Below, one piece after another: positions 5,484 to 10,108 of a stretch of DNA of 50,988 nt. Under the pieces are notes generated by a model, which made no database searches, was not told where the DNA came from, and worked only from the letters and a program-made list of their open reading frames with translations. The translations under genes and the position numbers were made by a program. The stretch's first letter is position 1, and every line of letters begins with the position of its first letter. The DNA is from Anaerolineae bacterium (GTDB lineage: Bacteria > Chloroflexota > Anaerolineae > Aggregatilineales > Aggregatilineaceae): positions 17,772-68,759 of the forward strand of contig JAHDWP010000017.1 in the NCBI GenBank assembly GCA_023382715.1. The letters are read 5' to 3'.

Positions 5484-5569
5484 AGAAATTGCACCAGGGA
5501 ACACCAAGCTCTAGCCCGGTGGGGAATGGCGCTTGCCTTCTTTCCGGCATAGCGTGGCGAACGAATGTG

Positions 5570-5578
5570 TGGTATACT
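5570..5578 (+). promoter_or_regulatory. extended -10 promoter element of the tnpB unit
   Basis: TGGTATACT is a good extended -10 (TGn plus TATACT) oriented toward tnpB. No clear -35 box is seen. It lies just outside the interleaved inverted repeats that precede tnpB. Confidence 0.4.
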
Positions 5579-5581
5579 GAT

Positions 5582-5672
5582 GTTGTCGAGTCACACATTG
5601 CGAGTTAAGATTGCGGATAGAGCACCCCGCCGGACTCGCGTGACTCGACAACTCGCAATCCCCGGCGGGGTG
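5582..5672. repeat. interleaved inverted repeats, tnpB element left end
   Basis: Three pairs of exact complementary segments occur in the order A-B-C-A'-B'-C': A is GTTGTCGAGTCAC (5582-5594) with A' at 5640-5652; B is ATTGCGAGTT (5597-5606) with B' at 5650-5659; C is CACCCCGCCGG (5623-5633) with C' at 5662-5672. The pairs are interleaved rather than nested, so they cannot all form as simple hairpins at once. Subterminal imperfect palindromes are normal at IS200/IS605 left ends; this arrangement is more elaborate. Confidence 0.75.
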
Positions 5673-5690
5673 TTCTGCTTTGAGGCGGCG

Positions 5691-6872
5691 ATGATCCGTA
5701 CCTACCGCTACCGGCTGTACCCGACGAACGCGCAGACGCGGGCGCTTGACTTCCTGCTGTGGCAGGGGCGCACGCTCTACAACGCCGCGCTCGAACAGCG
5801 CATCACCGTCTACAAAGAGACTGGCAAGGGTGTGAGCTATCCGCAACAGTGGGCGCACTTCCGCGACCTGCGCAATGCCAATCCCGACACGCTCGGCTAC
5901 CTCAACGCGACCAGCGTCCAGCAGATGCTTCGCCGCCTCGACAAAGCCTTCACCGCTTTCTTCCGCCGCCTGAAGGCGGGCGAGAAGCCCGGCTTTCCGC
6001 GTTTCAAAGGGCGCGACCGCTTCCACAGCCTGGAATACCGGCACGGTGACGGCTGCAAGCTGCGGCTTGACGAACGCAAGCGCGCCGCGCTCTACGTCCA
6101 GAACGTGGGCGAGATCAAGGTCAAGTTCCACCGCCCGCTGCCTGACGACGCAACGATTAAGCACGTGGTCATCAAGCGCCGGGCCAGCAAGTGGCACGTC
6201 TGCCTGATGCTCGACCTGCCCGATCCGGTCATCCCAGAGCGCACCGGCCCGGCAGTCGGGATTGACATGGGGCTGGCGCACCTGCTGGCGCTCAGCGACG
6301 GAACGCTGGTCGAAAACCCGCGCTGGCTGCGTCAGAGCCTCGCCCAACTGCGCGTCGCGCAGCGCCGCCTGTCCCGGCGGCAGAAGGGCAGTGCGCATCG
6401 CCGCAAAGCCGCCGCGCAGGTCGCGCGCCTGCATGAGCGGGTGGCCAACCAGCGCCGCGACTTCTGGCACAAGCTCACCCGCCAGCTGGCGGATACCTAC
6501 AGCCTGATCGCTCTCGAAAACCTGACGCTCGCCTTCATGACGGCCAATCGCCACCTCGCCCTCAGCGCGCACGACGCGGGGCTGGCGGAGTTCCAACAAC
6601 TGCTCGCGTACAAAGCGGAAGAAGCTGGTACGCTGGTGGTGACCGTGAACCCCGCCTACACCTCGCAGGCGTGCTCGGCCTGTGGTGTGGTCGTCCAGAA
6701 GGAGTTGAGCGTTCGCGTACATGTTTGTCCTGACTGCGGTCTCACGCTTGACCGTGACGTGAATGCCGCTCGGAATATCCTGATGTGTGCGGTCAATCCG
6801 GCCCGGACGGGGCCGCCAGGGCGTAACGTGGCCGGTTGCGGCGAGCGTGCTCTGGGAAGCTCCCCGCTTTAG
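5691..6872 (+). CDS. tnpB: RNA-guided endonuclease TnpB
   Basis: A 393-residue TnpB, full length for the family (about 400). The ATG at 5691 opens the typical N-terminus MIRTYRYRLYPTNAQ; upstream in-frame codons lie inside the left-end palindromes. The RuvC-like active site appears intact: Asp192 in GIDMGL, Glu276 in ALENL and Asp356 in LDRDVNAARN. A zinc ribbon is formed by Cys328/Cys331 and Cys346/Cys349 (CSAC and CPDC). Family members cut DNA next to a transposon-specific motif, guided by an omega RNA transcribed from the 3' end of the element. The stop codon here lies inside the right-end hairpin, consistent with such an overlapping RNA. No tnpA is nearby. Confidence 0.93.
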   Translation: MIRTYRYRLYPTNAQTRALDFLLWQGRTLYNAALEQRITVYKETGKGVSYPQQWAHFRDLRNANPDTLGYLNATSVQQMLRRLDKAFTAFFRRLKAGEKPGFPRFKGRDRFHSLEYRHGDGCKLRLDERKRAALYVQNVGEIKVKFHRPLPDDATIKHVVIKRRASKWHVCLMLDLPDPVIPERTGPAVGIDMGLAHLLALSDGTLVENPRWLRQSLAQLRVAQRRLSRRQKGSAHRRKAAAQVARLHERVANQRRDFWHKLTRQLADTYSLIALENLTLAFMTANRHLALSAHDAGLAEFQQLLAYKAEEAGTLVVTVNPAYTSQACSACGVVVQKELSVRVHVCPDCGLTLDRDVNAARNILMCAVNPARTGPPGRNVAGCGERALGSSPL

Positions 6873-8054: not shown

Positions 8055-8230
8055 GGGCCGGGCGACTCTCCGGGGGCGAACGGTCAGGCGCAGCCGTATT
8101 GTAGCGCAGATCGGGCGGGAAGGTGGAGGGAGGATGCGCGCGCGAGAGTACGTGTCGGGGGTGTTCTATGGTACTCTATGAGCACACATGAAAATATGGC
8201 GAGAACTGACACAATGAGAGCCTGGAACTC

Positions 8231-8446
8231 ATGCATCAGCATCCATTGGCAGAGGTGTTTGGTTTTCCAATTGACAATGGGTCGGAAAGAGCCAATCGCT
8301 ACCGGAAACACAAGCTCTGTCCCTACAACAACCGGGTTCCGAACTGCACCCAAGATAAGGCCAACAGTCCTTTAGGCGTCTGTAGCATTTTTACAGGCGC
8401 GCACAGCATCGCCATTACCTGTCCCATTCGCTTTCGCCAAGACTAG
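8231..8446 (+). pseudogene. NotI-like restriction endonuclease, N-terminal part (ends at in-frame amber)
   Basis: This 71-codon segment encodes the N-terminal Cys4 metal-binding portion of a NotI-family type II restriction endonuclease. Cys30 (KLCPYNNRVPNC), Cys39, Cys51 (PLGVCSIF) and Cys64 (TCPIRF) match the iron-binding cysteine arrangement known in NotI. The frame ends at a TAG at 8444-8446, and the same frame continues immediately with the catalytic half (8453-9112), so only one codon separates the parts. TAG is one substitution from TGG (Trp) or CAG (Gln). Either the gene is inactivated by a single nonsense mutation, or the stop is read through or suppressed, or the two parts are made as separate chains. 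The DNA is visibly less GC-rich than its surroundings, suggesting transfer. Confidence 0.75.
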
Positions 8447-8452
8447 CTGATA

Positions 8453-9112
8453 GTGGAAGAGGCAGCAGCGTTCTTCTTCCCTCCAGCCGCTAATTGGACA
8501 TCCCTGGGGAAAATTCGCCTTAATGATCGGGGCGGAAGATCGGCCGGCAATATTGATCTGGTGCTGGCTTCCTACGACGACAGAGGACGGGTGACCGATT
8601 TTGGCACGCTGGAAGTTCAGGCGGTCTATGTCTCTGGCAATATCCGCCAGCCGTTTGAGTACTACATGGAGAACCCCGCTAGGCGCTACGACCTGGACTG
8701 GGCCAACCGACCCAATTACCCCCGACCCGATTATCTTTCCTCTTCGCGCAAGAGACTTGTGCCGCAGCTCATCACCAAAGGCGGTATTCTCAGGCATTGG
8801 GGTATAAAGCAGGCTGTGGCGCTGCACGCTGAGTTCTTCCGAACACTGCCACTGCTACCTGAGGTTGAGCCACAAGAAGCGGATATGATCTGGTTGATCT
8901 ATGATTTGGCCTACGACTCTAAGGAGAAGCTGTATCATCTGAAGTTGGAGCGCACCGCGCATACTCTGTTCAGGCCGGTTCTGGATCAGATTATGACGGC
9001 TGAGCCTGGGCCTGTGGAGGAATTCATAGGTCTTTTGCAGGAGAAGCTGGATAAGAAACTGGAAGGCGAAGAAAATCCGCCCGACGCACCGACATTAGCC
9101 GATCTCTTGTAG
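8453..9112 (+). CDS. NotI-like restriction endonuclease, catalytic part
   Basis: A 219-residue reading frame opening at a GTG two codons after the amber stop that ends the N-terminal part, in the same frame. It carries the nuclease core: GNIDLVLASYDDRG followed by DFGTLEVQAVYVSGNI. This parallels the active-site segment of NotI, where the usual PD-(D/E)XK lysine is replaced by Gln (here Asp35, Glu54 and Gln56). Later family segments include KRLVPQLITKGGILRHWGIK. Without the Cys4 domain it may not fold or bind DNA properly. The stop codon lies 9 bases before the start of a Dam-type adenine methylase, the expected modification partner. Family assignment is by remembered resemblance to NotI and needs a profile search; the pairing with a methylase supports it. 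Confidence 0.75.
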   Translation: MEEAAAFFFPPAANWTSLGKIRLNDRGGRSAGNIDLVLASYDDRGRVTDFGTLEVQAVYVSGNIRQPFEYYMENPARRYDLDWANRPNYPRPDYLSSSRKRLVPQLITKGGILRHWGIKQAVALHAEFFRTLPLLPEVEPQEADMIWLIYDLAYDSKEKLYHLKLERTAHTLFRPVLDQIMTAEPGPVEEFIGLLQEKLDKKLEGEENPPDAPTLADLL

Positions 9113-9121
9113 GCAGAGTTC

Positions 9122-10009
9122 ATGAGCCAACTATACCTCCCAGGGCTGTCGCCGCTGCCGGCTGGGCATGTCGTGAATGTGGCGTCAGTCAAGCACCGCA
9201 GTCCTTTCAGGTATCCAGGCGGCAAAACCTGGCTGGTGCCGCGCATCTATCAATGGCTGAATAGCCTTCCTCACAGGCCAGCGCGTTTGGTCGAGCCTTT
9301 TGCTGGCGGCGCCATTGTAGGACTCACGGTGGCTGCCGAGCGCCTCACCGATCAGGTGATCCTGGTGGAGATTGACGATCAGGTTGCGGCAGTGTGGGAA
9401 ACGATCATTAATTGCGGCGAAGGCCTGTGGCTCGCCGAACAGATTGGAGACTTCCAACTCACCGCCGAGAACGTGGAGAGTTTTCTGCGCCAAGACAATC
9501 TGACGCCGCAAGAGCGCGCCCTGCAAACCATTGTCAGAAACCGGGTGAACAGGGGTGGAATTCTGGCTGAGGGCGCAGGTAAGCTCAAGTTCGGCGAAAA
9601 TGGCCGAGGCATTCGCTCGCGCTGGTACCCGGCGACCTTGTGGAAGCGGATCGTCGCTATTGACGCGATCCGTGACCGTCTCAGCTTCATACACGGAGAT
9701 GGTCTGGAAGTCATGCGCCAGTACGTCGGTGACAGCGGGACAGTCTTCTTCATTGATCCCCCCTATACAGCTTCTGAGAAGAAACCAGGGAGTCGCCTCT
9801 ACACTCACTGGCAGGTGGACCATGCGGAGTTATTCCGGCTTGCCAGGAGGCTGGAAGGCGACTTCCTGATGACCTGCGATAACGTGTCCGAAGTCCAGGC
9901 ACTGGCCGATCAGCACGGTTTCGATTCAGAAGCGGTGGCTATGAAGACCACGCATCACGCCCAGCTAACCGAACTGCTCATTGGGCGCGACCTCGACTGG
10001 CTCCGGTAG
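9122..10009 (+). CDS. Dam-family (D12 class) DNA adenine N6-methyltransferase
   Basis: A 295-residue alpha-class adenine methyltransferase. It shows the N-terminal FRYPGGK (residues 29-35) that contributes to SAM binding, the motif I loop EPFAGGA (58-64), and the catalytic motif IV DPPY (212-215). The length and motif order (X-I-TRD-IV) are typical of Dam/DpnM-like enzymes. It methylates adenine in a specific short sequence that cannot be predicted here. The start is 9 bases after the NotI-like endonuclease stop, so the two form an operon and a type II restriction-modification system. An intact methylase with a disrupted endonuclease would leave modification without restriction. Base composition is lower in GC than the flanks. 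Confidence 0.93.
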   Translation: MSQLYLPGLSPLPAGHVVNVASVKHRSPFRYPGGKTWLVPRIYQWLNSLPHRPARLVEPFAGGAIVGLTVAAERLTDQVILVEIDDQVAAVWETIINCGEGLWLAEQIGDFQLTAENVESFLRQDNLTPQERALQTIVRNRVNRGGILAEGAGKLKFGENGRGIRSRWYPATLWKRIVAIDAIRDRLSFIHGDGLEVMRQYVGDSGTVFFIDPPYTASEKKPGSRLYTHWQVDHAELFRLARRLEGDFLMTCDNVSEVQALADQHGFDSEAVAMKTTHHAQLTELLIGRDLDWLR

Positions 10010-10064
10010 TTCTTTGCTTCATCCCACGCACGCCACACAATCCGCGCCGCTCGAATTTGCCTAT

Positions 10065-10108
10065 TGGTCCTAATTGGCCCTATACGTGGCTCTATGGTCC
10101 TGTTACGA
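10065..10108 (+). promoter_or_regulatory. MocR-type operator/promoter region with repeated TGGTCC boxes
   Basis: Four similar boxes in direct orientation precede the MocR gene: TGGTCC (10065-10070), TGGCCC (10075-10080), TGGCTC (10087-10092) and TGGTCC (10095-10100). They are followed by TACGAT (10103-10108), which could be a -10 box only a few bases before the start codon. MocR regulators are known to bind direct repeats near their own promoters and often autoregulate. Box similarity is seen directly; function is inferred. Confidence 0.5.

Follow-up and report, generated by a model that had tools for sequence, protein, structure and literature searches.

An interrupted NotI-family nuclease gene beside a full-length adenine methylase gene in an Anaerolineae bacterium, and recurrent nuclease loss in its phylum

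The restriction endonuclease NotI recognizes the site GCGGCCGC, which contains no A. As described in passages of two papers, NotI harbors a mono-iron Cys4 centre (Fe–Cys4) and a Gln where the catalytic Lys is normally found (PMC4176176, PMC4081073); our own literature search on NotI-family and NotI-like restriction enzymes found no paper. Ten plasmid records carry a relative of the nuclease described here, all annotated 'NotI family restriction endonuclease'. Within the neighbourhoods of four of these plasmid relatives, three adjoin a 'DNA adenine methylase' and one adjoins a cytosine methylase. As such plasmid pairs exist, a NotI-family nuclease together with an adenine methylase is a mobile Type II system of known type, and the adjacent nuclease and methylase kept as a pair that mark Type II are found in the plasmid pairs as well as in 47 intact adjacent pairs of our genome surveys. 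The annotated phage collection held no record with a relative of the nuclease of locus L001, a close homologue of the one studied here. Four IMG/VR viral contigs (L079, L080, L081, L082) carry pairs of a NotI-family nuclease and a D12 methylase, and by eye the pair of L082 adjoins open reading frames resembling phage head genes. Whether solitary methylases originate from decayed restriction–modification systems is disputed; passages of Oliveira et al. 2014 (PMC4176335) state that solitary genes rarely come from the degradation of complete systems, and that methylases and nucleases are both under purifying selection.

Here we analyzed a 50,988-nucleotide stretch of DNA from an Anaerolineae bacterium, termed the window, for which a sequence-only reading had proposed a NotI-like nuclease split by a single amber codon next to a Dam-type methylase. 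Two open reading frames on the forward strand, 8231–8446 (71 residues, four Cys) and 8453–9112 (219 residues, GTG start), share one frame, in which just one TAG (8444–8446) divides them, and the methylase frame (9122–10009, 295 residues) starts 9 bases past the nuclease stop. Searched with the NotI profile PF12183, the C-terminal piece alone (8453–9109) scored 147.8 bits (E 4.2e-43) and the N-terminal piece alone 21.9 bits, just below the cut-off of 22, so that the suggested profile check of both halves came out positive for the former and fell short for the latter. With read-through, the score rose to 188.4 bits (E 1.7e-55) and the match covered profile positions 8–238 of 238, indicating that both pieces belong to a single gene rather than lying together by chance, and confirming the proposed arrangement of a Cys4 part and a nuclease core in one frame; the genome search gave 184.8 bits for the window's nuclease. 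The 5′ part of the gene (8231–8446) comprises residues 1–71 with the Cys4 segment and ends at the TAG. The 3′ part (8447–9112) contains the D...E-x-Q core (D109, E128, Q130) and is untranslated barring reinitiation, for example at the GTG at 8453, or read-through. A codon-position G+C scan of the window for further interrupted genes marked six places, which we took for ordinary neighbouring genes.

The nuclease Cys residues 30, 39, 51, and 64 correspond to the four conserved Cys of the family, C51 and C64 being present in all 21 aligned rows and C30 and C39 in 20 of them, where the exception (L014 of genome G041) is frameshifted in that region. D109, E128, and Q130 are identical in 21 of 21 rows, forming a PD-(D/E)xK-type core with Q replacing K. 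The window's nuclease has the putative metal-site Cys4 set of the NotI family. For the read-through polypeptide we obtained a structure model of middling quality (pLDDT 62.9, pTM 0.60), for which Foldseek placed the NotI entries 3c25 and 3bvq at ranks 1–4 with E values from 1.3e-7 (3c25) to 2.9e-5. VIA-align 2 gave a Z of 11.1 for 3c25 (rmsd 5.6 over 240 residues) and 10.3 for the second NotI, and Z ≤ 6.4 for every other structure listed. Based on this model, the nuclease is predicted to share the NotI fold, and the proposed NotI-like identity is borne out by both profile and structural match. By sequence, NotI was not found in the PDB with the C-terminal piece or with a ten-member family profile. 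A NotI-family enzyme is an uninterrupted polypeptide, which the TAG at 8444–8446 precludes here, and we class the window's gene as an interrupted copy of a NotI-family gene rather than as a working member.

The gene at 9122–10009 (forward strand) encodes a full-length D12-class DNA adenine-N6 methyltransferase, which bears out the Dam-type methylase of the sequence-only reading, with 48.1 bits to PF02086 (cut-off 22) and a DPPY motif at residues 212–215; for the Dam subfamily profile TIGR00571 it scored 38.7 bits, not reaching the cut-off of 114.85. Its best PADLOC match was PD-Lambda-5_B (123.1 bits), ahead of the Type II methylase models, and the PD-Lambda-5 models yielded no match from the nuclease piece or from any of 10 family nucleases. 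As an adenine methylase implies an A in the target, this target should differ from the GCGGCCGC of NotI, and a new recognition specificity is likely.

Both genes lie within an inserted restriction–modification cassette of ~1.9 kb (8119–10043, forward strand, approximate ends), flanked by a glycosyltransferase gene on one side and a GntR/aminotransferase gene on the other. The G+C content is ~0.68–0.77 in the two flanking genes vs 0.51–0.60 in the cassette. In our survey of relatives, where the window's genome is G000, the congener G001 lacks this stretch and exhibits an empty site with both flanks joined by 4 bases between them. A second congener, G004 (contig of 11,523 bases, equal in length to DYGW01000121.1, from which locus L002 comes), carries the cassette at the identical place. 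As distances among G000, G001, and G004 are similar (90.5–93.3% for both flanking genes), the site could be empty in G001 either originally or through a loss. Intact, more distant pairs are found at other places in G002 and G003. A repeat search over 8090–10080 revealed neither inverted repeats at the ends nor direct repeats in the flanks that would fit an insertion unit. An OrfB_IS605/TnpB-type gene (PF01385, PF07282, PF12323) is located at 5565–6872 on the forward strand, ~1.2 kb from the left end of the cassette.

In our proposed course of events, a small Type II cassette, in which a D12 adenine methylase follows a NotI-family nuclease, would have inserted between the glycosyltransferase and the GntR/aminotransferase genes, and a recent nonsense codon at a conserved Trp would have inactivated the nuclease. 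Translation would then normally end past the Cys4 segment, ahead of the catalytic residues, with the methylase staying full length. With the nuclease cut short and the methylase full length, we infer that restriction has probably been lost, while DNA methylation may be retained. The cassette is thus best described, with fair confidence, as a horizontally gained restriction–modification unit turning into a solitary methylase. The view that apart from the stop everything looks intact holds for the open methylase frame, but not for nuclease residues 41 and 94, which deviate where 17 of 17 close homologues are invariant, nor for methylase residue 252, which deviates where all 15 homologues are invariant and by which the window's methylase may be weakened.

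The column of the TAG, proposed for inspection by the sequence-only reading, contains Trp in 16 of the 17 close homologues and Gly in one, and also Trp in the sister G004. Within the 17, L014 (G041) is frameshifted upstream and L005 is truncated where its contig ends; the set omits seven distant PF12183 proteins, which have D, R, R, H, G, G, and G in this column. The nuclease of G004 is itself broken, by a 40-bp deletion, next to an intact, full-length methylase frame. Between G000 and G004 we determined dN/dS values of 0.136 for the nuclease (15 nonsynonymous and 30 synonymous changes), 0.207 for the methylase, and 0.175 and 0.136 for the flanking genes. The 15 nonsynonymous nuclease changes are far below the ~112 expected if the gene had been neutral since the G000/G004 split, indicating that the lesions of G000 and G004 are both recent. 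The 40-bp deletion and a 44-bp deletion in G343 (L124) affect by eye nearly the same conserved stretch in genomes of different families; an overlap of at least 28 bases had a probability of 0.034 in a simple simulation, and this stretch is a possible deletion hot spot.

Against decay at this locus, a dN/dS of 0.136 is equally expected of a working gene, and a TAG that depends on one base in one assembly may be an error. If the TAG arose by base-calling or assembly, the gene would be an ordinary intact NotI-family nuclease, in line with the involvement of a single base and with the strong purifying selection on both sides of it. Speaking against such an error, the assembly is of good quality, with 98.64% completeness in 82 contigs. 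Of the 15 amino-acid differences between the two nucleases, five could be assigned to G000, two to G004, and eight to neither. At positions invariant in 17 of 17 homologues, two changes fall to G000 vs one to G004, small numbers which faintly suggest that constraint has relaxed in G000, and hence that the TAG is real.

The comparison of the two genes across many loci also bears on a possible error. We detected PF12183 in 21 of 101 relatives, 63 of 396 class genomes, and 32 of 400 phylum genomes, and the methylase in 18 of 101 (E 1e-25), 51 of 396, and 46 of 400 (both E 1e-15), respectively, the sets overlapping and comprising one genome per species with many fragmented assemblies rather than pan-genomes. 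Adjacent pairs were scored by tblastn on the loci with self-matches left out. The 62 scorable adjacent pairs consist of 47 intact ones (32 from relatives and class, 15 more from the phylum set), 13 with a broken nuclease and a full-length methylase, and two with the reverse pattern. Besides the nonsense codon of G000 and the 40-bp deletion of G004, the broken nucleases comprise frameshifts (G041, G458, G669, G742), a frameshift with a stop (G106), the 44-bp deletion of G343, a 234-bp deletion between copies of GGGTAATAT (G265), a gene missing most of its 5′ half (G133), and remnants (G146, G231, G496), where G133, G146, G231, and G496 were scored as broken on the basis of remnants. The assembly of G669 is unfragmented, with all 4,684,931 bases in one contig.

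The tally omits loci at contig ends or on split contigs (G043, G289, G074, G155, G270, G488, G555), intact nucleases without such a methylase beside them (G244, G173, G330), broken nucleases without such a methylase (G284, G698), damaged methylases whose adjacent nuclease is absent or a remnant (G389, G137, G578, G506), all distant low-scoring PF12183 matches, and the non-survey loci L001 and L079–L083. The nuclease and methylase of L003 are 100% identical to those of G548 (L163), a genome of the window's phylum, and L003, labelled Proteobacteria, is probably a metagenome assembly with a wrong label.

Base errors should strike both genes equally, as nuclease and methylase are about equal in length, and a one-sided sign test on 13 nuclease-side lesions out of 15 gave 0.0037. 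This excess, which includes several large deletions, argues against sequencing error. The reverse pattern of a damaged methylase beside an intact nuclease in G064 and G188 counts against the decay reading and suggests that some lesions are assembly errors. At these loci (L010 and L142, respectively) the methylase is apparently frameshifted near residues 30–37 and the nuclease is intact, a state that would be harmful if real and expressed; these frameshifts are perhaps assembly errors. Weighing both sides, we consider it unlikely that the window's TAG is an error. In a tree of 61 methylases, built from relatives, class rows, and other loci with the later phylum rows left out, the 10 broken-nuclease rows need nine changes, at least seven of them forced by well-supported branches, and these rows are scattered over the tree, often next to an intact sister.

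Further loci have a methylase and no complete nuclease. In genus g292, G504 and G590 carry intact pairs, and G512 and G520 are without ~1.1 kb spanning the nuclease, with an identical junction and approximately the last 11 nuclease codons kept next to the methylase; the methylase of G512 is 99% identical to that of G504. G694 of genus g385 aligns with G688 at 93% to either side of the nuclease-bearing stretch but, as judged from BLAST pieces, lacks the stretch itself. No nuclease was detectable near the methylase in the stretch taken from G060, G061, G168, G204, G241, G245, G252, G387, G454, G641, G700, G772, G608, G577, and G480, the view being limited by contig ends for G060, G252, and G454. 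Six genomes of genus g265 (G468, G505, G513, G556, G577, G591) carry a related methylase at 45–48% identity. PF12183 had no match in these six genomes, the locus being inspected for G577, and their methylase is possibly a kept solitary one.

We compared the position of the window's stop, three codons after the sequence CPIRF, with the other lone stops of the family. Considered were those of G000, G106 (also frameshifted), G118, G270, G290, and G578, G284 having a frameshift only. Two distant PF12183 genes carry a stop no more than three codons away from the window's TAG column in a frame that is open to either side of it, namely G290 (loci L225/L231) with a TAG immediately behind CPVRF and G578 (loci L226/L232) with a TGA two codons past CPTRF. 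The lone stops of G118, G106, and G270 are located elsewhere. For at least two of five other lone stops to fall no further than 3 codons from residue 72, the post-hoc probability is 0.006, suggesting that plain random nonsense may not fully account for them. Codons at this boundary are slightly more stop-prone, with 0.4–0.5 vs 0.36–0.38 one-step stop neighbours per codon. The clustering could be chance in a stop-prone stretch, or could indicate that a split is tolerated or useful there. It appears rather improbable that three branches of the family have converged on a two-chain or throttled NotI-type nuclease as a recurrent step toward a solitary methylase.

The sequence-only reading had also considered a genuine two-chain design, in which a Cys4 chain and a catalytic chain, the second made by reinitiation at a nearby in-frame start, would act jointly. 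The split indeed falls past the Cys4 segment and ahead of the catalytic residues, the distant G290 and G578 stops are at almost the identical place, in-frame starts follow the stops at codon 3 (GTG, window), 5 (ATG, G578), and 17 (ATG, G290), and G578 is a single 4.89-Mb contig. None of these stops, however, is common to the nearest relatives. The sister G004 has Trp at the window's TAG, G254 and G177 (90–92% identical to G290) have Glu at the G290 stop, and G669 (71% identical to G578) has Arg at the G578 stop. A stop at the window's TAG position is absent from every close homologue, in G004 the GTG simply encodes an internal Val, no Shine–Dalgarno-like stretch is apparent by eye ahead of the GTG at 8453, and the boundary codons are slightly stop-prone. 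Thus, the two-chain design found no support among close homologues and some among the distant genes, and we regard it as very unlikely.

Low-level read-through of a leaky or suppressed amber codon would yield a little full-length nuclease and thereby throttle a toxic enzyme, consistent with a frame that is open and constrained past the TAG and with the closely similar position of the lone stops in G290 and G578. Suppression, as invoked by the sequence-only reading, and recoding were unsupported, since no CUA-anticodon tRNA was found among 42 Rfam matches, an incomplete set with no tRNA-Ile, and since TAG is a normal stop, ending 11 of the 29 long coding-like frames of the window and both cassette genes. 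In addition, close homologues do not share the TAG and the stop of G578 is a TGA, leaving read-through extremely unlikely. Of the four readings of the TAG, a recent inactivating mutation is the best supported, based on the Trp column, the dN/dS values, the sister lesion, and the surveys.

What remains at the locus is a methylase next to the interrupted nuclease of an already known type of system, and added interest comes from the nuclease loss being recurrent, recent, and varied with the methylase kept, as well as from the recurrence of lone stops between Cys4 part and core. The purifying selection observed here agrees with the statement on selection in Oliveira et al. 2014 (PMC4176335). The frequent in-place decay in the window's family, as sampled from many fragmented assemblies, does not fit the statement in the same passages that degradation is rare. 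One family presents intact pairs, freshly broken nucleases, remnants, and nuclease-only absences, sometimes within one genus, so that the order and speed of nuclease loss become measurable. Such parallel losses shed light on a possible origin of lone DNA-methylating enzymes, the recurring stop between Cys4 part and core is an oddity open to testing, and the intact relatives are candidate enzymes.

Compared with NotI itself (PF12183; PDB 3C25, 3BVQ), the window's nuclease is alike in its profile match, its four Cys, its D...E-x-Q core, and its top structural match, but differs in having ~10–12% identity in structural alignments, an adenine methylase as partner, and an interrupting stop. The pair on the Thermus brockianus plasmid pTbrSNM4-1c (WP_244363995.1/WP_234508656.1) has the same gene order and families, its nuclease being 57.4% identical to that of L001; in contrast to the window's pair, it is uninterrupted and plasmid-borne. 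With solitary (orphan) DNA methyltransferases the locus shares a methylase that probably lacks a working partner nuclease. Unlike for these, the interrupted partner is still present in the window, indicating a transitional state between a complete Type II system and a solitary methylase.
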